A DNA stretch of 64,000 nt from Streptomyces sp. SDr-06 (GTDB taxonomy: Bacteria > Actinomycetota > Actinomycetes > Streptomycetales > Streptomycetaceae). Below the pieces are notes generated by a model. It searched no databases. It was not told where the DNA came from and saw only the letters and a list, made by a program, of their open reading frames with translations. Made by a program: the position numbers and the translations under genes. Each line of letters starts with the position of its first letter. Position 1 is the stretch's first letter. The stretch spans positions 1 to 64,000 of the forward strand of contig NZ_QOLA01000013.1 of assembly GCF_003324565.1 (NCBI RefSeq), in the 5' to 3' direction. This document shows, piece after piece, positions 721-22,046 of the stretch.

Positions 721-2295
721 TCAGGCGAGGGTCTCGGTCCAGCGGGCCCGGGCCTGTTCGGGGGAGCGGAGCAGGGCCAGGGTGGGCATGCCCAGGTTCT
801 GGCCGGTCGACAGCAGCTCGGGGAGCCTGGGCAGCGGGGCCACGGCCGCGACGTCGTCCAGGACGAGTGTCATTGGTGGGTCGAGGCGACCGTCAGATGA
901 CCGTTCGGCCATGCGGCGGCCGCGCTCGACCACGTCTGAGGCGAGTGCCGTGAGCAGGGGCATCGCGGCGGGATGGGACCGGGGGTCCTCGATCGCTTCA
1001 CCCACCACATAAAGGGTGCCCCCCTCGTTCACAAATGATTCCAGCGCGAGCGAATCCGCTCGGTTCGGGTTGCAGGCGTCGCGGATATGGATCGAGGAGA
1101 GACAGGCCAGAGCCCGGGCCGTCAACTGCTGGGCGATTTCCCGGCGTTCGGGGTAGGCGGTGAGGGCGGACTCCAGGAGCCCGGCGCCGCCGCTCTGGGC
1201 CTTGGGGTGGGTGCGGAGGATGCGTACCGCCTCCTGGGCGGACGTCCCCTGTGACCAGCGGTGCAGCTGCTTCATGGCCTTGCCGTCGCGGCTCTCCAGG
1301 GCGGCGGCGTGCAGCCAGCAGCGCAGGAGGGTTTCCGCGGTGTCCGCCATGGCGGCGTCCACGCGGGCCTGCGGGCGGACCGGGGCCAGGAGCGCGGCGG
1401 CCCGCGCGGCGGCGGTGTCGGGGTCTTCGCAGCCGGCGGTGGGGGACCAGTGCAGCCTGGCGGGGGTGTCGCAGCGGTGGGTCGGGTCGTAGACGTGTAC
1501 GGGGCCGAGCTTTGCCCGGGCGTCCTTCGTCTCCGCCCACAGGACGGGGTCCGAGGTGACCACCAGGGCCGGGCCCTCCGCGTCCTGGATCGCCTGGAGG
1601 GCGGTGGGTCTTCTCGCTTCCGGGGCGCCGAAGAGGAGGCGGGGGGCCTGCTGTTCCGCCCGGGGGGCGGGGAGCTGTTCCCACGTGGCGGGGGCGGGCT
1701 CGCTCACGGGCGCGGGGTGCGGGTGTTCTTGCGGTGGTGCGGGGCTGGGTGCGACCGGCTGCGCGGGAGCGGCGAGCGGGGCTCCGGCGGGTGCCCGCTG
1801 TGTCCGCTCTTCCCCGAGGTCTCGGCTTCGCTCGGCCGGGGGAGGCCCCAGCAGCCCCGCGGAACGTTCGTCGACGCCCACGGGCGAGGGGAGTTCAGGG
1901 GAGGCACCCGCGACCCGGCTCGGCGCGTGCTTCGCTCTCGATCGCACCGCTCGCCAGCGGGTGAACGTGCCCAGGGCGAAGATCGTCAGGACGATCAGGA
2001 CGAGGAGTTCGCCGATCAGGAGGCCCCAGAAGAGGCCGTAGCCCGAGAGAGCGGTCGGCGGGGTGTCGGGCCAGGCGGCCGGCAGGTCGTGGGGGGCGGT
2101 CACCAGGGAGCGCAGGGCCATCGGGCTGTGCGTGAACGATACGCCGGGGGGCCAGGCCCCCTGGGTGAAGAGGCCCGCCAGACCCGTGGCCGTCCACACC
2201 AGGACCGTGAGGCCAAGCAGGAAGGCCAGCAGGCCGATCAGGAGTCCGTCCGGGATGCCGCGCTGGTCGCCTCTCGGTGTGCCGGTTCCGCTCAC
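721..2295 (-). CDS. TraG/VirD4-like coupling protein homologue with degraded P-loop
   Basis: This 524-residue protein has two membrane segments near residues 18-44 and 87-110, a Pro/Ala-rich linker (about 125-220) and a C-terminal domain resembling T4SS coupling ATPases. The stretch ALVVTSDPVLW (about 243-253) followed by LGPVHVYDP matches what follows the P-loop in VirD4/TraG. VLDDVAAVAPLPRLPEL (about 478-494) resembles their Walker B region. Where GxxGxGKT should stand it reads LLFGAPEARRPTA, so the Walker A lysine is absent. It is the last gene of the minus-strand cluster, one base after the VirB4-like gene. Streptomyces homologues are often labelled 'type VI secretion protein', which is misleading. 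Family placement is inference. Confidence 0.7.
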   Translation of the reverse strand: MSGTGTPRGDQRGIPDGLLIGLLAFLLGLTVLVWTATGLAGLFTQGAWPPGVSFTHSPMALRSLVTAPHDLPAAWPDTPPTALSGYGLFWGLLIGELLVLIVLTIFALGTFTRWRAVRSRAKHAPSRVAGASPELPSPVGVDERSAGLLGPPPAERSRDLGEERTQRAPAGAPLAAPAQPVAPSPAPPQEHPHPAPVSEPAPATWEQLPAPRAEQQAPRLLFGAPEARRPTALQAIQDAEGPALVVTSDPVLWAETKDARAKLGPVHVYDPTHRCDTPARLHWSPTAGCEDPDTAAARAAALLAPVRPQARVDAAMADTAETLLRCWLHAAALESRDGKAMKQLHRWSQGTSAQEAVRILRTHPKAQSGGAGLLESALTAYPERREIAQQLTARALACLSSIHIRDACNPNRADSLALESFVNEGGTLYVVGEAIEDPRSHPAAMPLLTALASDVVERGRRMAERSSDGRLDPPMTLVLDDVAAVAPLPRLPELLSTGQNLGMPTLALLRSPEQARARWTETLA

Positions 2296-2296
2296 G

Positions 2297-3715
2297 TCAG
2301 GCCACCGTGGACTCGGACGAGCCGGACAGTTGCTGTTCGATGAGCGCGGCGCGGCGTTCCGCCTCCGATTCGAGCTGGGAGTCCAGCTCCGAGGCCAGGA
2401 TGTCGTCCGTGGCGGCGGACTCGGTCATGGCGCGGTCGGTGAAGACCAGCGGCCGTTCGCGTTCCGTGATCAGGTGTTTGACGACCTGGACGTTGCCGTT
2501 GACGTCCCAGACGGCGATGCCCGGGGTGAGGGTGGGGATGATCTCGACCGCCCAGCGGGGCAGGCCGAGGACGCGGCCCGTCGCCCTGGCCTCGTCGGCC
2601 TTCTGGGCGTAGATCGTCCTGGTCGAGGCCATCTTGAGGATCGCCGCCGCTTCCCTCGCCGCCGCTCCGTCCACGACGTCGGAGAGGTGGTGGACCACCG
2701 CCACGAAGGACAGGCCGAGACGTCGGCCGAACTTCAGGAGGCGCTGGAAGAGCTGGGCCACGAAGGGGCTGTTGATGATGTGCCAGGCCTCCTCGACCAG
2801 GAAGATGCGCTTCTTCCGGTCGGGGCGGATCCAGGTGTGCTCCAGCCAGACGCCCACGATCGCCATCAGGATCGGCATCGCGATCGAGTTGCGGTCGATG
2901 TGCGAAAGGTCGAAGACGATCAGGGGCGCGTCCAGGTCGATGCCCACCGTGGTCGGGCCGTCGAACATGCCGCGCAGGTCGCCGTCGACCAGACGGTCGA
3001 GCACCAGGGCGACGTCCAGGCCCCAGGCCCGTACGTCGTCTATGTCGACGTTCATCGCCTCGGCCGACTCGGCCTCGGGGTGGCGGAGTTGCTCGACGAT
3101 GTCGGTCAGGACCGGCTGGCGGTCCGTGATCGTCCCGTTGACGTAGGCGTGCGCGACCTTGAGAGCGAAACCCGATCGTTCGTCCAGGCCGTGACCCATC
3201 GCGACTTCGATGATCGTTCGAAGCAGGGCGAGCTGGCCGGTCGTGGTGATCGCCGGGTCCAGTGGGTTGAGCCGGATGCCGCCGTCCATCGCGGTCATCG
3301 GGTCGAGCCGGATGGGAGTTATCCCCAGCTCGCGCGCGATGAGGTTCCATTCGCCGACGCCGTCCTCGCCCTGGGCGTCGAGCACGACCACCTGCCGGTC
3401 GCGGAACCTCAACTGCCGCAGCACATAGGTCTTCTCCAGGGCCGACTTGCCGTTGCCGGACTCGCCGAGGACCAGCCAGTGCGGGGCCGGGAGCTGCTGT
3501 CCGTACAGCTGGAACGGGTCGTAGATGTAGCCCTTGCCGCTGTACACCTCGCGCCCGATGATCACGCCGGAGTCGCCGAGGCCGGGGGCGGCGGTCGGCA
3601 GGTAGACGGCCTGGGCCTGGCCCGTGGAGGTGCGGACGGGAAGGCGGGTGGTCTCCACCTTGCCGAAGAGCAGGGCGGTGAAGGCGTCGGTGACGAGAGA
3701 CAGCGGATCTCGCAT
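2297..3715 (-). CDS. VirB4/TraC-like ATPase of type IV secretion
   Basis: This 472-residue ATPase has Walker A GESGNGKSA at residues 84-92 and Walker B RIFLVEEAWHII around 300-312, the usual VirB4 form. VirB4 proteins energise assembly of type IV secretion channels at the inner membrane face. At 472 residues it covers only the ATPase half of a normal VirB4 (about 800). The missing N-terminal part may be in the upstream gene (3735-5282). It follows that gene after 19 bp, so translation is probably linked. Confidence 0.82.
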   Translation of the reverse strand: MRDPLSLVTDAFTALLFGKVETTRLPVRTSTGQAQAVYLPTAAPGLGDSGVIIGREVYSGKGYIYDPFQLYGQQLPAPHWLVLGESGNGKSALEKTYVLRQLRFRDRQVVVLDAQGEDGVGEWNLIARELGITPIRLDPMTAMDGGIRLNPLDPAITTTGQLALLRTIIEVAMGHGLDERSGFALKVAHAYVNGTITDRQPVLTDIVEQLRHPEAESAEAMNVDIDDVRAWGLDVALVLDRLVDGDLRGMFDGPTTVGIDLDAPLIVFDLSHIDRNSIAMPILMAIVGVWLEHTWIRPDRKKRIFLVEEAWHIINSPFVAQLFQRLLKFGRRLGLSFVAVVHHLSDVVDGAAAREAAAILKMASTRTIYAQKADEARATGRVLGLPRWAVEIIPTLTPGIAVWDVNGNVQVVKHLITERERPLVFTDRAMTESAATDDILASELDSQLESEAERRAALIEQQLSGSSESTVA

Positions 3716-3734: not shown

Positions 3735-5282
3735 CTAGCGGCGGATGCCGGTCGCGAACGGCAAGGTGTTGACGAAGGCCCGATGGTGCTCGCGGTCGCA
3801 CCACTCCAGCTTCAGGTACGACTTGCCGGCGGAGGCCCTGATGGTCCGCTTGTCGCGGGCCAGGGCCTCCGGCGAGCGCGAGGACACCGTGATGTAGCCG
3901 ACCAGGTTGACGCCGGCGGCCCCGCTCGCGAGGTCCTCGCCGCGCTGGTCGAGGCGGCCGTGGGCGGCGATGTCGCGCGGGTCGACCGTGCGGTTCATCT
4001 TGGCCGCGCGGGACGCCTCCGCCTCGTCGTTGGTCTTCTCGGTGAGCATGCGCTCGATCGCGACCTCGGTGGGTTCGAGGTCCATGCAGACCGCCACCGT
4101 GCGGATCACGTCCGGCGTGTGGACGAGCAGCGGGGCCAGGAAGTTGACGCCGACCGGGGTCATCGGCCACTCCTTCACCCACGCCGTGGCGTGGCACCAG
4201 GGGGCCCGCGTCGAGGACTCGCGGGTCTTGGCCTGGAGGTAGGTGGGCTCCACGGCGTCGAGCTCGGCGGGCCAGGCGTTGCGCTTGGTCATGGCCTGGA
4301 TGTGGTCGATGGGGTGGTCCGGGTCGTACATGGAGTGCACGAGCGAGGCGAGACGGCTCTGGCCGAGCGGCTGGCGTACCCGGATGTCGGCCTCCGCCAA
4401 CCGGGCGCAGATGTCGGTCAGTTCGCGGGCCATGACGACCGCGAGGCCGGCGTCGCGGTCGAGCTTGCGGCCGTGGGGGTTGGCGGCGCGGGCCATGGCG
4501 TGGGCCTCGGCGGCGAGCTCGCGGCTGTACTGCATGCAGGCCACGAGGTAGGCGCGGTGCTGCTCGCTGGAGGTGGACACCATGGACTGGAGCTGCTCGT
4601 ACGACTCCTGGAGCCAGGCCGGGGCGTTCTTGTCGCCGCGCTGGGCGACGTCCTTGGCGTGCGCGTCGGGGTCGGCGGGCAGGGTGCGGGCCAGCATCTG
4701 GAGCCTCGTCACGAAGCCGTCGCCGTTGGCGACGTGCTTGAGTAGCGTGCCGAAACGGTCGACCAGGGCTTCCTGGTCCTCACTGTCGCGCAGGCCGACG
4801 CCCGGTCCCTCGATCTCGATCGCGGCCGTCACGGTACGCCGGTCGGCGTGCAGCAGGACCGCGATCTCGTCGGGACCGAAGGGAGCCGCGAGCCAGTTGA
4901 TGTGGCCGATGCCGGGCGGCGGCCCGACCTCGACCTCGCGCCCGTCGAGCCGCACCCCGGCCTCGGGCGCCCCCGAGCGGAAGGCGGTGCCGCGCCGGAG
5001 CGACCGCTTGTAACTGCGGTTGATCTCGAACCACTTGTAGAACGTGCGGTGCTTGTACGGCAGGTACACCGCGGCGAGCGCCAGGAACGGGAAGCCCATC
5101 AGGAGCACGATCCGCAGGGACAGGACGGGGACGAGCAGCCCGCACATCATGCCGAGGAAGGCGCCGCCGATGATCAGTACGATCTCGCCGGTCTCGCGGT
5201 TCTTGCCGACGACGGCCGACGGCCGGGCACGGCCGATCAGATACGTACGGCGGGGCGCGACCGGCTGGGACTGGGTCGTCAA
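3735..5282 (-). CDS. SCO6880/PrgI-family protein (VirB3 plus VirB4 N-domain-like)
   Basis: The 515-residue product starts MTTQSQPVAPRRTYLIGRA and has two close membrane helices (about residues 34-75), as in PrgI/VirB3 proteins. A long soluble domain follows, with AVLLHADRRTVTAAIEIEG and helical stretches like the N-terminal domain of VirB4. Taken with the next gene, it could form a VirB3-VirB4 unit split in two; this is inference. The ATG overlaps the stop of the TrbL-like gene by four bases (5279-5282), showing translational coupling. Confidence 0.75.
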   Translation of the reverse strand: MTTQSQPVAPRRTYLIGRARPSAVVGKNRETGEIVLIIGGAFLGMMCGLLVPVLSLRIVLLMGFPFLALAAVYLPYKHRTFYKWFEINRSYKRSLRRGTAFRSGAPEAGVRLDGREVEVGPPPGIGHINWLAAPFGPDEIAVLLHADRRTVTAAIEIEGPGVGLRDSEDQEALVDRFGTLLKHVANGDGFVTRLQMLARTLPADPDAHAKDVAQRGDKNAPAWLQESYEQLQSMVSTSSEQHRAYLVACMQYSRELAAEAHAMARAANPHGRKLDRDAGLAVVMARELTDICARLAEADIRVRQPLGQSRLASLVHSMYDPDHPIDHIQAMTKRNAWPAELDAVEPTYLQAKTRESSTRAPWCHATAWVKEWPMTPVGVNFLAPLLVHTPDVIRTVAVCMDLEPTEVAIERMLTEKTNDEAEASRAAKMNRTVDPRDIAAHGRLDQRGEDLASGAAGVNLVGYITVSSRSPEALARDKRTIRASAGKSYLKLEWCDREHHRAFVNTLPFATGIRR

Positions 5283-6631
5283 CGCCCTCCACCTCCAGTG
5301 TTCTTGTTACCTGTGTTGCGGCGGTGAGTGTGCGGCGTGCCCGACGTGGGAGCGGAGCCGCTGCGCGGCGTGGGTGCGGCGGAGGGGACAGTTCCGCCGC
5401 CGACCCCGCCGCCGGAGCCCCGGCTGCTGTGGGCGGACATGCCGCCGGACACGGCGTTCGCGGGGCGCGCCTGGGTGGCTCCGCCCCCCTGGTTGCCCCG
5501 TCCGCTGTGGGTCTTGATGCCCTGGGAGACGAGGGCGGCGGGCGAGGAGATGAGGGCGGCGGCCTGGGAGCCGTCGGTGGCCTGCTTGCGGTTGGTGCGG
5601 GCGGAGGCGATCTCGTCGCCGAAGCCGGGCACGAAGCGGTAGATCATCGCCGAGGCGAAGATCGCGAGCAGGATGATGGCCAGGCCCGAGACGACTGCCG
5701 AGAACGAGTCCGGGCCCTTGCCGGAAGAGAGCGCCCCGGCGAGCCCGAGCACGATCACGATGACCGGTTTCACCATGATCACGGCGATCATGATGCCCGC
5801 CCAGCGGCGTACGTGGCCCCACATGTTCTTGTCGACGAGCCCCGCGTACACGACGGTGCCGAGCAGCGCGCCGACGTACAACAGGGCGGCGCGGATGACC
5901 AGTTCGAGGAAGAGGACGCCCGCGGCCAGGATCGAGACGAGCGCGACGACGATCAGCATGATCGGCCCGCCGCCGATGTCCGTGCCCTTCTTGAGCGCGG
6001 CCGAGAACGACCCGAAGAACACGTCCGACTGGTTGCCGGTCGCGTTCGCGATGGCCTCCGTGACGGCGTCGGTCGCCGATACGACGGTGTAGAGGATCAG
6101 CGGCGTGAACGCGGAGGCGAGGACCGTCAGCCACAGGAAGCCGACGGCCTCCGAGATCGCCGTCGACAGCGGCACCCCGCGGATGGCCCGTTTGGCCACG
6201 GCCAAGAGCCACAGGACGAGGGTGAGGAAGGTCGCGGCGGCGAAGACCACGGCGTACTGGGTGCGGAAGCTGGGGTTGGTGAAGTCGACCGTCGCCGTCG
6301 ACTTCACCGCGTCGGAGAGCTTGCCGACGATCCAGGCGGCCGCGTCGGCACAGCCCTTCGCCAGGGAGGTCAGGGGGTCGGCGGATTGGGTATCGGGTGG
6401 CGGGGTGGCTCCGCCCTTGCTGGAACCGGATTCGCAGTAGTCCCTGGCGGGGCCACGAATGAGGTCGCAGGCGTTGTTGCTCGGGCTCGGGCTCGGACTG
6501 CTGCCCGGTGACCCGCTCGGAGTGGGAGTCGGGGCAGCGTACGCCCTGGTCGCGAGCAGGATGGCCGCCGTCTGGACGGCCGTGAACGCGGCGGCGATCG
6601 AGAAGGCGCGGTGGGGCGGCTTACCGGGCAT
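5279..6631 (-). CDS. TrbL/VirB6-like polytopic membrane protein
   Basis: This 450-residue protein has an N-terminal signal or anchor (MPGKPPHRAFSIAAAFTAVQ), a Pro/Ser-rich spacer, and a short cysteine-containing stretch. At least six hydrophobic helices follow between about residues 130 and 360. The C-tail is rich in Gly, Ser and Pro. The profile matches TrbL/VirB6, the inner-membrane channel part of type IV secretion. The start at 6631 is chosen because it overlaps the stop of the previous gene by 11 bp. The upstream extension to 6871 is low-complexity Arg/Ser/Pro and belongs to another frame. Confidence 0.75.
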   Translation of the reverse strand: MPGKPPHRAFSIAAAFTAVQTAAILLATRAYAAPTPTPSGSPGSSPSPSPSNNACDLIRGPARDYCESGSSKGGATPPPDTQSADPLTSLAKGCADAAAWIVGKLSDAVKSTATVDFTNPSFRTQYAVVFAAATFLTLVLWLLAVAKRAIRGVPLSTAISEAVGFLWLTVLASAFTPLILYTVVSATDAVTEAIANATGNQSDVFFGSFSAALKKGTDIGGGPIMLIVVALVSILAAGVLFLELVIRAALLYVGALLGTVVYAGLVDKNMWGHVRRWAGIMIAVIMVKPVIVIVLGLAGALSSGKGPDSFSAVVSGLAIILLAIFASAMIYRFVPGFGDEIASARTNRKQATDGSQAAALISSPAALVSQGIKTHSGRGNQGGGATQARPANAVSGGMSAHSSRGSGGGVGGGTVPSAAPTPRSGSAPTSGTPHTHRRNTGNKNTGGGGR

Positions 6632-7487
6632 ACGTGAACCCTCCGTACTGCTCCACGGCGTCGGACATGTCCTTGGCGGGAGCGGCGGCCTGGTCACGGC
6701 CGACGGGTGCCGGGCCGTCCTTCTGCGTAAAGTCGGTGATCTTCCAGTCCCCGCCGGTCCACTTGAGCTGGAACGTGTTCGTGAACCAGCTCTCCGACAC
6801 TGGGTTCTTGGAGCCCTCACCAGCCATCCCGAACAGTGCCGAGTACCAGACCGACACGGTCGCGGTGGCACCGTCGAACTTGTCCGCCTTGGAGCCGACC
6901 GGGTTGAACCGGGAGATGAACGTCTGCCCAGCGGGCGCCGTGCCGTCCGGGTTGAGGCCGATGCGGGTCAGGAAATCCTTGCCGGAGTAGGCCTTGTCGA
7001 GGTCGCTCTGCCGGGCCGCCGCGACATCCGGGGCGTACACCGTGCCCACGATTTCGTGACGGCGGTTCGTGCTGTACATGCCGTCGGAGCCCAGCGCCAC
7101 CAGGTAGTTGACGGCAGCCGACTGTGCCCCCTGCTCGTTCTGGGGGAAGCCGGAGGCGATGCCGGATTGTTTGCCCGGTACCGGCTTCGTGCCGGTGGCC
7201 GCCGTCGACTGGCCGTCCGGCTTCTTCGCGTTCTGGCCGTCCGCCGAGGCGCCGGAGTCGCCGCCCCGGTTCGCGAAGGCGATCGCGGCCACCAGCAGGA
7301 CCACGACGCCCACCACCATGACGAGCGAGCGGCTGTTGCGCGGGGGGCGGCGGGTGCCGCCGTAGCTGTCGCCGGAGCCTTCCGGGAGGCGGGTGCGGGT
7401 CTGGCGGGTGCCGCCGAGCGTGCTGAAGCGGTCGTCGCCCGGGCCCGGGGCACCCCCGCCGTGGCCCGGCTCGTCGTCGAAACTCAT
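6621..7487 (-). CDS. membrane-anchored conjugation-like protein (VirB8/TcpC-like candidate)
   Basis: The 288-residue product has a cytoplasmic Gly/Arg-rich N-terminus, one membrane helix (SLVMVVGVVVLLVAAIAFA, about residues 73-91) and an external domain of about 190 residues. That domain resembles an NTF2-like fold (KWTGGDWKITDF near the end). This layout matches VirB8/TcpC proteins, which scaffold Gram-positive type IV channels. No signature residue proves it. The start MSFDDEPG at 7487 is preferred over an upstream extension. Confidence 0.6.
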   Translation of the reverse strand: MSFDDEPGHGGGAPGPGDDRFSTLGGTRQTRTRLPEGSGDSYGGTRRPPRNSRSLVMVVGVVVLLVAAIAFANRGGDSGASADGQNAKKPDGQSTAATGTKPVPGKQSGIASGFPQNEQGAQSAAVNYLVALGSDGMYSTNRRHEIVGTVYAPDVAAARQSDLDKAYSGKDFLTRIGLNPDGTAPAGQTFISRFNPVGSKADKFDGATATVSVWYSALFGMAGEGSKNPVSESWFTNTFQLKWTGGDWKITDFTQKDGPAPVGRDQAAAPAKDMSDAVEQYGGFTYAR

Positions 7488-7671
7488 GCCTGCGCCCCCT
7501 CGACCGTTGGCGGTTCCGCGTAGTACGACGGTAGCCGTGCTGGTACCCGCGCGGGCGCGGTGTAATGACTCGACATCAGGGAGACGCAACCTCTGCCGTT
7601 GGGCACGACGGACGGGTGGTGTGAGGGGGACAGAAGAACAGAAAGAGGGGAGCGGATCGGCTGACGTGAGG

Positions 7672-7989
7672 TCAGACGGCCATCCCGTACACGATGGTGA
7701 AGAGCGTGCCGAGTGAGCCGATGATGAAGACTCCGGTCAGGCCCGCCACGATCAGGCCCTTGCCCTGCTCGGCGCTGAACGTGTCGCGCAGCGCCGTCGC
7801 TCCGATCCGCTGTTTGGCCGCACCCCATACCGCGATGCCGAGGCAGAGAAGGATGGCGACCGCCATCACCACCTCCACCATGATGCGGGCCTCGTTGCCG
7901 AGCGTCCCGAACGGCCCCCAGTTGGGGGCGATTCCGCCGATGATGGTGGTGATGTCGCCTTTTCCGGCTGCCAGGTACATGTAACTCAC
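7672..7989 (-). CDS. small two-helix membrane protein, VirB2/TrbC-size
   Basis: The 105-residue protein has two hydrophobic helices (about residues 38-58 and 78-100) joined by a basic loop (AAKQRIGATALRDTF). Size, topology and its place as first gene of the cluster fit a VirB2/TrbC pilin-like component, but no conserved signature is visible. The start could be the GTG at 7989 or the ATG at 7980. A 184-bp gap to the next gene holds nothing recognisable. Confidence 0.55.
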   Translation of the reverse strand: MSYMYLAAGKGDITTIIGGIAPNWGPFGTLGNEARIMVEVVMAVAILLCLGIAVWGAAKQRIGATALRDTFSAEQGKGLIVAGLTGVFIIGSLGTLFTIVYGMAV

Positions 7990-9515: not shown

Positions 9516-10523
9516 GTGCGCAGAGTCTGGGTGATCGGCGGGGTCGGGTTCGGGGTGTGCCTGAGCTTCGTCGCGCTGCTCGTGGTCGGTACGTACTCGG
9601 CCGCCGCCGGGCTGGCTTCGAAGGCGGGCGGGGCGGTCGGGCTGGCCAAGGGCGCCGTCCCGGCCGTCTACCAGCCCCTCGTGCAGAAGTGGGGCAACCT
9701 CTGTCCCAGTCTCAACCCGGCGATGCTCGCCGCCCAGCTCTACTCGGAGAGCGGCTGGAAGCCCAATGCCGTGAGCCCCGTCAACGCGCAGGGCATCGCC
9801 CAGTTCATGCCCGACACCTGGGCGAGCCACGGCATCGACGGCAACGGTGACGGCAAACGGGACATCTGGGACCCGGCGGATGCCATTCCGTCAGCAGCCT
9901 CGTACGACTGTGAATTGGCCAAATACGTCAAGGACGTGCCGGGCGACGCGAGCGACAACATGCTGGCGGCGTACAACGCGGGCGCGTACGCGGTCATCAA
10001 GTACAAGGGCGTCCCTCCGTACGCGGAGACCCAGGGCTACGTGAAGACCATCCGCTCGCTTGCGAAGAGCTTCGCCGCGCCCGTGGGCCGGGTGCAGCCC
10101 TCCCAGCAGGCGGCCGGGGCCATCTACTACGCGCAGCAGAAGCTGGGCACGCCGTACCTCTGGGGCGGGGAGGGGACGCCCGAGCAAGGGGGGCGGTTCG
10201 ACTGCTCGGGGCTTACGCAGGCCGCGTACCAGAGCGTCGGGATCACGCTGCCGCGCGTCGCCAACGACCAGTACAACGCCGGCCCGCACCCCGCCCGCAA
10301 CGAACTGCTCCCCGGGGACCTGGTGTTCTTCTCGACCGACCTCAGCAACTCGCGGGCCATCCACCACGTCGGCCTGTACGTCGGTGGCGGGTACATGATC
10401 AACGCGCCCTACACCGGTGCCGTCATCCGCTTCGACAAGATCGACGCGCCCGACTACTTCGGCGCGACCCGGGTCACCAAGGACGGCGCGGCGGCGCTGC
10501 CCAGCTTCAAACCGGGGGCTTGA
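9516..10523 (+). CDS. bifunctional cell-wall hydrolase: lytic transglycosylase plus NlpC/P60
   Basis: The 335-residue protein starts at a GTG, with an N-terminal membrane anchor (residues about 5-30). A transglycosylase domain follows (AAQLYSESGWKPNAV with catalytic Glu, then GIAQFMPDTW and YNAGA). The C-terminal NlpC/P60 domain has Cys in RFDCSGLTQAAY and His in IHHVGLYVG. Enzymes of this layout open peptidoglycan in Gram-positive conjugation systems, doing the job of VirB1. Its position next to the VirB-like cluster suggests the same role here. Confidence 0.88.
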   Translation: MRRVWVIGGVGFGVCLSFVALLVVGTYSAAAGLASKAGGAVGLAKGAVPAVYQPLVQKWGNLCPSLNPAMLAAQLYSESGWKPNAVSPVNAQGIAQFMPDTWASHGIDGNGDGKRDIWDPADAIPSAASYDCELAKYVKDVPGDASDNMLAAYNAGAYAVIKYKGVPPYAETQGYVKTIRSLAKSFAAPVGRVQPSQQAAGAIYYAQQKLGTPYLWGGEGTPEQGGRFDCSGLTQAAYQSVGITLPRVANDQYNAGPHPARNELLPGDLVFFSTDLSNSRAIHHVGLYVGGGYMINAPYTGAVIRFDKIDAPDYFGATRVTKDGAAALPSFKPGA

Positions 10524-20900: not shown

Positions 20901-22046
20901 CTACTGGAGCTCGTTGATGGTCGAGACGACCTTGGAGTTGATCTCGGCCGGGATGGGCGCGTAGCTGGCGTCGGTGAGCAGCTTCTGCCCGTCGGCGCCG
21001 GCGGCGTAGGAGAGGAAGGACTTGACCGTGCCGAGGGTGGCCGGCTTGTTGCCCTTGTCGCAGACGACCTCGTACGTCACGAGGACGATCGGGTAGGCGT
21101 TGTCGGCCTTGGTCGTGTAGTCCAGCTTCAGCGCCAGGTCCTTGCCGGTGCCGGCGATCTTCGCGGCGGCGATGGCGGTGGAGGCGTTGGCGGAGCTGGC
21201 CTTGACCGGGGCGGACGCGCCGGTGTTGATGTCGACGGTCTTGATCGACTGCGAGGAGGCGTACGAGAGCTCGAAGTAGCCGATCGCGCCGTTGGTCTGC
21301 TTGACCTGGGCGGCGACGCCGGCCGAGCCGGACGCGGCCTGGCCGCCGGGCGCGGCCCACTTCTTGGCGGGCGCGTACGACCAGTCGGCCTTGGCCGTGG
21401 CGCTGAGGTACTTGGTGAGGTTCTCGGTGGTGCCGGAGTCCTCGGAGCGGTGGAAGGCCTGGATCGCCAGGTCGGGGAGCTTGGCGCTCGGGTTCAGCTT
21501 GGCGATGGCCTCGTCGTTCCACTTGGTGATCTTGCCGTTGAAGATCTTCGCGAGCGTCGAGGCGTCCAGGACGAGGTTGTCGACGCCCTCCACGTGGAAG
21601 CCGATCGCGATCGGGCCGCCGACCATGGGCAGGTTGATGCCCTGGCCGCCGCCGGTGCAGACCTTCTTGGAGTCCTCCACCTGCTGGGCGTTGAGCGGGG
21701 AGTCGGAGCCGGCGAAGCCGACCGTGCCCTGGGTGAAGGCGACGATGCCTTCGCCGGAGGACGAGGACTTGTAGTTGATCTGCGCGTCCTTGCAGGCCGC
21801 CATGTAGTTCTTGACCCACAGGTCCATGGCGTTCTTCTGCGCGGAGGAGCCGGAGGCCAGGAGCTGGCCCTTGGCGCCGTCGCACTTCACGTTGGAGGCG
21901 GCCCCGGTGGTCTTGTCGCCGCTGCCGCCCGTGCTCCCGCCGCCGCTGTTGTTGTCGCTGCCGCACGCCGTGAGGGCCAGGGCGCTGGACACGGCGATGA
22001 CGCCGAGGGCGGTGGCGCGGAGCCGGTTCTTGCGCTGAAGCTTCAC
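20901..22046 (-). CDS. pstS: phosphate-binding lipoprotein PstS
   Basis: The 381-residue protein has a lipoprotein signal with lipobox ALTAC (Cys28), a Gly/Ser-rich linker (GSDNNSGGGSTGGSG), and the PstS domain (LASGSSAQKNAMDLW, FAGSDSPLNAQQV, FHRSEDSGTTENLTKYL). It captures phosphate outside the membrane for PstCAB. A PHO box lies upstream at 22180-22201, so PhoP activation under phosphate limitation is expected. Confidence 0.97.
   Translation of the reverse strand: MKLQRKNRLRATALGVIAVSSALALTACGSDNNSGGGSTGGSGDKTTGAASNVKCDGAKGQLLASGSSAQKNAMDLWVKNYMAACKDAQINYKSSSSGEGIVAFTQGTVGFAGSDSPLNAQQVEDSKKVCTGGGQGINLPMVGGPIAIGFHVEGVDNLVLDASTLAKIFNGKITKWNDEAIAKLNPSAKLPDLAIQAFHRSEDSGTTENLTKYLSATAKADWSYAPAKKWAAPGGQAASGSAGVAAQVKQTNGAIGYFELSYASSQSIKTVDINTGASAPVKASSANASTAIAAAKIAGTGKDLALKLDYTTKADNAYPIVLVTYEVVCDKGNKPATLGTVKSFLSYAAGADGQKLLTDASYAPIPAEINSKVVSTINELQ

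Follow-up and report, generated by a model that had tools for sequence, protein, structure and literature searches.

The TraG/VirD4-like protein of 524 aa that is encoded on the minus strand at positions 721 to 2295 of the window (the whole stretch of 64,000 nucleotides of Streptomyces DNA that was analyzed) is probably a domesticated, catalytically dead coupling protein of the VirD4/TraG type, which has been kept as a noncatalytic membrane subunit of the Cmd machine. Genus-wide loss of the ATPase site, combined with preservation of the remainder of the protein, suggests that CmdA is now a noncatalytic part of a machine for spore formation. The cmd operon itself is already known, and the new part is the nature of CmdA as a dead coupling protein. 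In its accessible text, the study of the operon describes CmdA only as a "membrane protein" and mentions neither a coupling-protein ancestry nor a dead ATPase site (PMC2782261). No report of CmdA as a dead coupling protein was found in the searchable literature, and a search of the openly accessible literature retrieved no coupling protein that lacks Walker A.

Synteny and the cmdB primers make it almost certain that this protein is CmdA (SCO4126), encoded by the published cmdABCDEF operon. The gene order around cmdA matched the SCO4126-SCO4142 map of Streptomyces coelicolor, and this identity follows from the fit of that order, of a two-TM gene, and of tgdA-type and pstS-position genes to the map. 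The operon consisted of six minus-strand genes in the published order, with cmdA next to cmdB. CmdB (positions 2297 to 3715, minus strand; 472 aa) is a VirB4-like ATPase, recognized by AAA_10 and TraG P-loop matches, by a match to the VirB4 structure 4ag5, and by the cmdB primers; apart from it and CmdA, the operon encodes no ATPase-type protein. Its Walker A motif GESGNGKS with K90 (3443 to 3466, minus strand) was intact and was kept in every Streptomyces-type CmdB whose sequence covers the motif (109 loci); in cmd-type loci without this P-loop, the end of the locus falls before the motif. The published cmdB mutagenesis primers matched the window at 3433 (4 mismatches in 31 positions) and at 2463 (3 mismatches in 31). 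As given in the accessible part of the publication, these primers look swapped: "K404A" fits the K90 codon (3433 to 3463) and "K90A" fits the distal lysine (2463 to 2493), and the text there states that the mutated lysines were changed to arginine, despite the "A" in the primer names (PMC2782261).

CmdC (3735 to 5282, minus strand) is a protein of the SCO6880 family with two TM helices (NF042935, 187.9 bits). CmdD (5279 to 6631, minus strand, with an inferred start at 6631) is a polytopic membrane protein with several hydrophobic segments; it is VirB6-like only by position and topology, and family searches gave no convincing match. CmdE (6621 to 7589, minus strand), an open reading frame with one TM helix by hydropathy, is VirB8-like only by position and showed no convincing family or PDB match. 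CmdF (7672 to 7989, minus strand; 105 aa) has two TM helices by hydropathy, and SCO4131 is likewise listed with two TM domains (PMC2000904). Divergent from the operon, a TgdA/SCO4132-type cell wall hydrolase with Pfam SLT and NLPC_P60 domains is encoded on the plus strand (9516 to 10523) and is probably a VirB1-like part of the cmd machine. A phosphate-binding-type gene (PBP_like_2; 20904 to 22046) occupies the position of SCO4142, which has been named pstS (PMC6585502). At the start of the window, positions 1 to 60 resemble by eye the 3′-terminal (5S) part of an rRNA operon, a place where many draft contigs with the cmd locus end; an Rfam search gave no match above the threshold.

CmdA comprises two N-terminal TM helices, a Pro/Ala-rich linker, a RecA-like core with an inserted all-alpha domain, and a truncated C terminus. 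The membrane anchor (helices at about residues 13 to 31 and 82 to 100, with a conserved loop between them; 1996 to 2259, minus strand) was delineated by hydropathy, profile-profile alignment, and invariant columns. Whole-length profile-profile alignment with intact coupling proteins reached a probability of 100% across the TM helices and the domain, and the anchor is homologous to that of the intact proteins. The linker (residues 126 to 214; 1654 to 1920, minus strand) was variable, with a mean majority frequency of 0.40, a pN/pS of 0.62, and a low pLDDT, while the all-alpha insert (residues ~292 to 423; 1027 to 1422, minus strand) has been retained, as indicated by the helices of the model, the coverage of TrwB residues 125 to 404, and conserved HAAA and W motifs. 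Pfam matches of CmdA were weak: TrwB_AAD_bind was matched in part, and TraG-D_C (PF12696) scored 17.7 bits, below its cutoff of 22, and covered only positions 1 to 48 of 126; the same family scored 82 to 96 bits in intact relatives and reached position 124 to 125. PDB sequence searches with CmdA gave no meaningful match, and a comparison of folds was used in their place.

At residues 220 to 232, where a P-loop would be expected, CmdA carries LLFGAPEARRPTA (1638 to 1600, minus strand), exactly as the preliminary description of this DNA had stated from the letters. Neither G-x4-GK nor GK[ST] occurred anywhere in the 524 aa, the sole GK being located at residue 338 inside the helical domain, and [GA]-x4-GK[ST] was absent from every frame of both strands of the cmdA stretch. 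A P-loop elsewhere in the protein was thus looked for and not found. A displaced P-loop or a frame error was ruled out, as the motif was present in no frame and the state was conserved over more than 100 genomes. In the orthologue alignment that had been proposed as a check, none of the 118 Streptomyces-type CmdA proteins had G-x4-GK at the P-loop position, which excludes chance or a sequencing artifact, and only 4 of the 118 had any lysine within residues 222 to 233. Related actinobacterial coupling proteins showed the aligned motif [GA]PPRxGK and kept the DE and LQ motifs as well. The Walker B strand of CmdA is TLVLDDV (residues 476 to 482; 850 to 870, minus strand), with Asp481 in place of the catalytic Glu, and Arg510 (766 to 768, minus strand) replaces the motif III glutamine (LQS to LRS). 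The claim that the Walker B region is recognizable therefore held for the strand and for the first Asp, which was kept in 94% of the CmdA sequences, but not for the catalytic Glu, which was Asp in 114 of 114, nor for the glutamine of motif III, which was Arg in the same 114 of 114. CmdA ended 5 to 12 residues past a conserved ARW, whereas its relatives run 108 to 132 residues further, so that about 110 C-terminal residues are missing. Among the 74 near-invariant positions of intact relatives, CmdA kept 35 and lost 39, the latter including the Gly and Lys of the P-loop, the Walker B Glu, the motif III Gln, and the missing C-terminal positions.

The AlphaFold model of the CmdA domain (54 sequences) had a pLDDT of 89.1 and a pTM of 0.90; it was used instead of a full-length model, which was poor (pTM of 0.41, with low pLDDT in the linker). 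At the former P-loop, the model showed a strand (residues 220 to 222), a two-residue turn (GA), and a helix starting at residue 225, and therefore no phosphate-binding loop. The best fold match was TrwB (Z score of 19.8 and rmsd of 3.0 over 264 residues; TrwB residues 125 to 404), which was on top in both the Foldseek and the VIA-align comparisons, followed by Cag-beta and the Legionella coupling complex. Structure prediction, the other check proposed at the outset, thus returned a TrwB fold that was kept with a P-loop that had shrunk to two residues. Taken with the motif losses, CmdA would neither bind nor hydrolyze ATP in the canonical way, and CmdB alone would energize the Cmd machine. There is good support for the corresponding interpretation in the preliminary description, that the coupling protein cannot use ATP normally and leaves the VirB4-like protein as the only motor; the further step to an adaptor or scaffold role of CmdA is an inference.

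A cmdA match was present in 22 of 22 and 25 of 25 same-genus genomes of two listings, 8 further cmdB genomes had an adjoining cmdA, and none of the Streptomyces genomes in which the gene was sought lacked it. At an E value of 1e-120, CmdB was detected in 40 same-genus genomes plus one other among 395 genomes of the class. A distant genome of the class (G007, locus L187) contains cmdB to cmdF, with a CmdB of 78% identity, and the position of cmdA lies beyond its contig end. In a tree of CmdA homologues that was built after the motif columns had been removed, decay was arranged in a series from intact proteins through locus L134 and a group of four (L060, L080, L085, and L088) to Streptomyces. 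An intact P-loop was found in no Streptomyces orthologue; the nearest outside the genus is that of L134 (GPARSGKA), but this protein already lacks the Glu and the Gln (LDD and LRS) and has a tail of 87 residues. The branch leading to L134 is long (support of 96/67), and the L134 genome has the whole cmd operon with a CmdB of 83% identity. The group of four shows APRSDKGKR or similar, in which the lysine is retained and the second Gly is replaced, and tails of 20 to 33 residues. Streptomyces CmdA forms the end of the series, with the P-loop gone and a tail of 5 to 12 residues. Within this sample, loss of the catalytic Glu and the Gln preceded that of the P-loop and the C terminus. Decay has continued in some Streptomyces strains: the second Walker B residue was altered again in L177 and L178 (LDT and LDQ), and in L184 and L185 CmdA is cut off ahead of Walker B or inside it (ahead of it in L184).

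Pooled over 30 pairs picked among close relatives, pN/pS was 0.138 for the CmdA domain, 0.28 for the TM region, and 0.62 for the linker, compared to 0.076 for CmdB; the former P-loop segment gave 0.54, a value obtained from only ~15 codons. More than 100 columns were invariant among 36 CmdA proteins. CmdA as a whole is maintained by purifying selection, and the phosphate loop is not. This clear selection is in contradiction with the absence of a laboratory phenotype of the cmdA null mutant. According to the accessible text of PMC2782261, sporulation is poor in cmdB to cmdF null mutants, while the cmdA null mutant sporulates as well as the wild type and makes no excess actinorhodin; chromosomes are missegregated in the cmdB and whole-operon null mutants; CmdB variants mutated at K90 or K404 do not complement in S. 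coelicolor; and transfer of an SLP2-derived plasmid is unaffected by deletion of the operon. Transposon insertions that raise actinorhodin levels have been reported in cmdB to cmdF and tgdA and not in cmdA, and tgdA mutants resemble cmdBCDEF mutants in overproducing actinorhodin and prodigiosin (PMC6585502). Together, the phenotypes of both papers assign the motor role to CmdB and an accessory role to CmdA. Given the wild-type-like null mutant and the missing transposon hits, any scaffold role of CmdA would have to be accessory or conditional.

The same phenotypes would be expected if CmdA were merely vestigial, a relic of a coupling protein that is no longer used and slowly decays on the chromosome without a function, and the shortened L184 protein and the LDT and LDQ variants point in this direction as well. 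We consider this unlikely in view of the pN/pS of 0.14 in the domain, the more than 100 invariant columns, and the presence of cmdA in all Streptomyces genomes that were checked. Arg510 and Asp481 were fixed in 114 of 114 sequences, which is not the random pattern of pure decay, and pseudo-ATPase subunits inside ATPase rings are a known theme. CmdA could therefore assemble with CmdB into a mixed ring or stack and act in trans, binding no ATP of its own but supplying a residue, Arg510 or a different one, that completes or regulates the active site of CmdB. This is a special case of the dead-coupling-protein explanation, with which it shares part of its likelihood. It appears somewhat less improbable than a relic but still doubtful, because the CmdB-dependent phenotype is intact in the cmdA null mutant and the C-terminal part of the CmdA domain is missing. 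That CmdA is still a motor which binds ATP noncanonically would agree with the predicted fold and the widely kept first Walker B Asp; however, CmdA has lost the Lys, the catalytic Glu, and the motif III Gln together with the phosphate loop, and the segment of the former P-loop is highly variable, which makes this reading very improbable.

For the favored explanation, a dead coupling protein kept as a subunit, the simplest history would be that a conjugation operon was fixed on the chromosome and its coupling ATPase was then disarmed. The ancestral actinobacterial operon would have encoded small membrane proteins, a VirB6-like protein, an SCO6880-type protein, a VirB4 ATPase, and a VirD4 coupling ATPase, and would have become a fixed chromosomal operon serving aerial growth and sporulation. 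After fixation, the feeding of DNA by the coupling ATPase would no longer have been required, and CmdA may persist as a membrane-anchored noncatalytic subunit docked to the Cmd complex, which it would modulate in certain circumstances. The substrate that is exported by a type IV secretion machine is defined by its coupling protein. A more far-reaching idea, which we offer tentatively, is that a conjugation machine has turned into a developmental envelope machine in which dead CmdA gates or receives a non-DNA substrate or the CmdB motor, with Arg510 and Asp481 forming a new functional site and not a scar. A genus-wide coupling protein without an ATPase site, situated in a sporulation operon and with relatives at intermediate stages of loss, constitutes a natural experiment. 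The series could separate the structural role of a coupling protein from its motor role and could show how a DNA transfer machine was reused in development.

CmdA of this genome corresponds to SCO4126 of S. coelicolor in its place beside CmdB, in being a predicted membrane protein, and in synteny to SCO4132 (tgdA) and SCO4142 (pstS). Searches of the genome of the window for another coupling protein, with CmdB and an intact homologue as queries, gave only the cmd locus. In the SCO6871-6884 cluster of S. coelicolor, SCO6878, SCO6880, and SCO6881 are relatives of CmdB, CmdC, and CmdD; unlike cmdB to cmdF null mutants, SCO6878 and SCO6881 null mutants show no sporulation or pigment phenotype in the accessible account (PMC2782261). 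Giant linear plasmids of Streptomyces and Actinacidiphila (L141, L142, L144, L145, and L146) carry operons of matching gene order whose coupling protein is intact, and PLSDB types these plasmids as nonmobilizable. The TraM-recognition-domain coupling proteins of actinobacterial plasmids (L141 to L146) belong to the fold family of CmdA at ~31 to 35% identity but differ from it in their intact [GA]PPRxGK, DE, and Q motifs and their full-length C terminus. Compared to TrwB of R388, VirD4, and TraG, CmdA is alike in its two TM anchors and its RecA-like core with an all-alpha insert, and it is distinguished by the lack of Walker A, the E-to-D and Q-to-R exchanges, and the missing C-terminal part of the domain.
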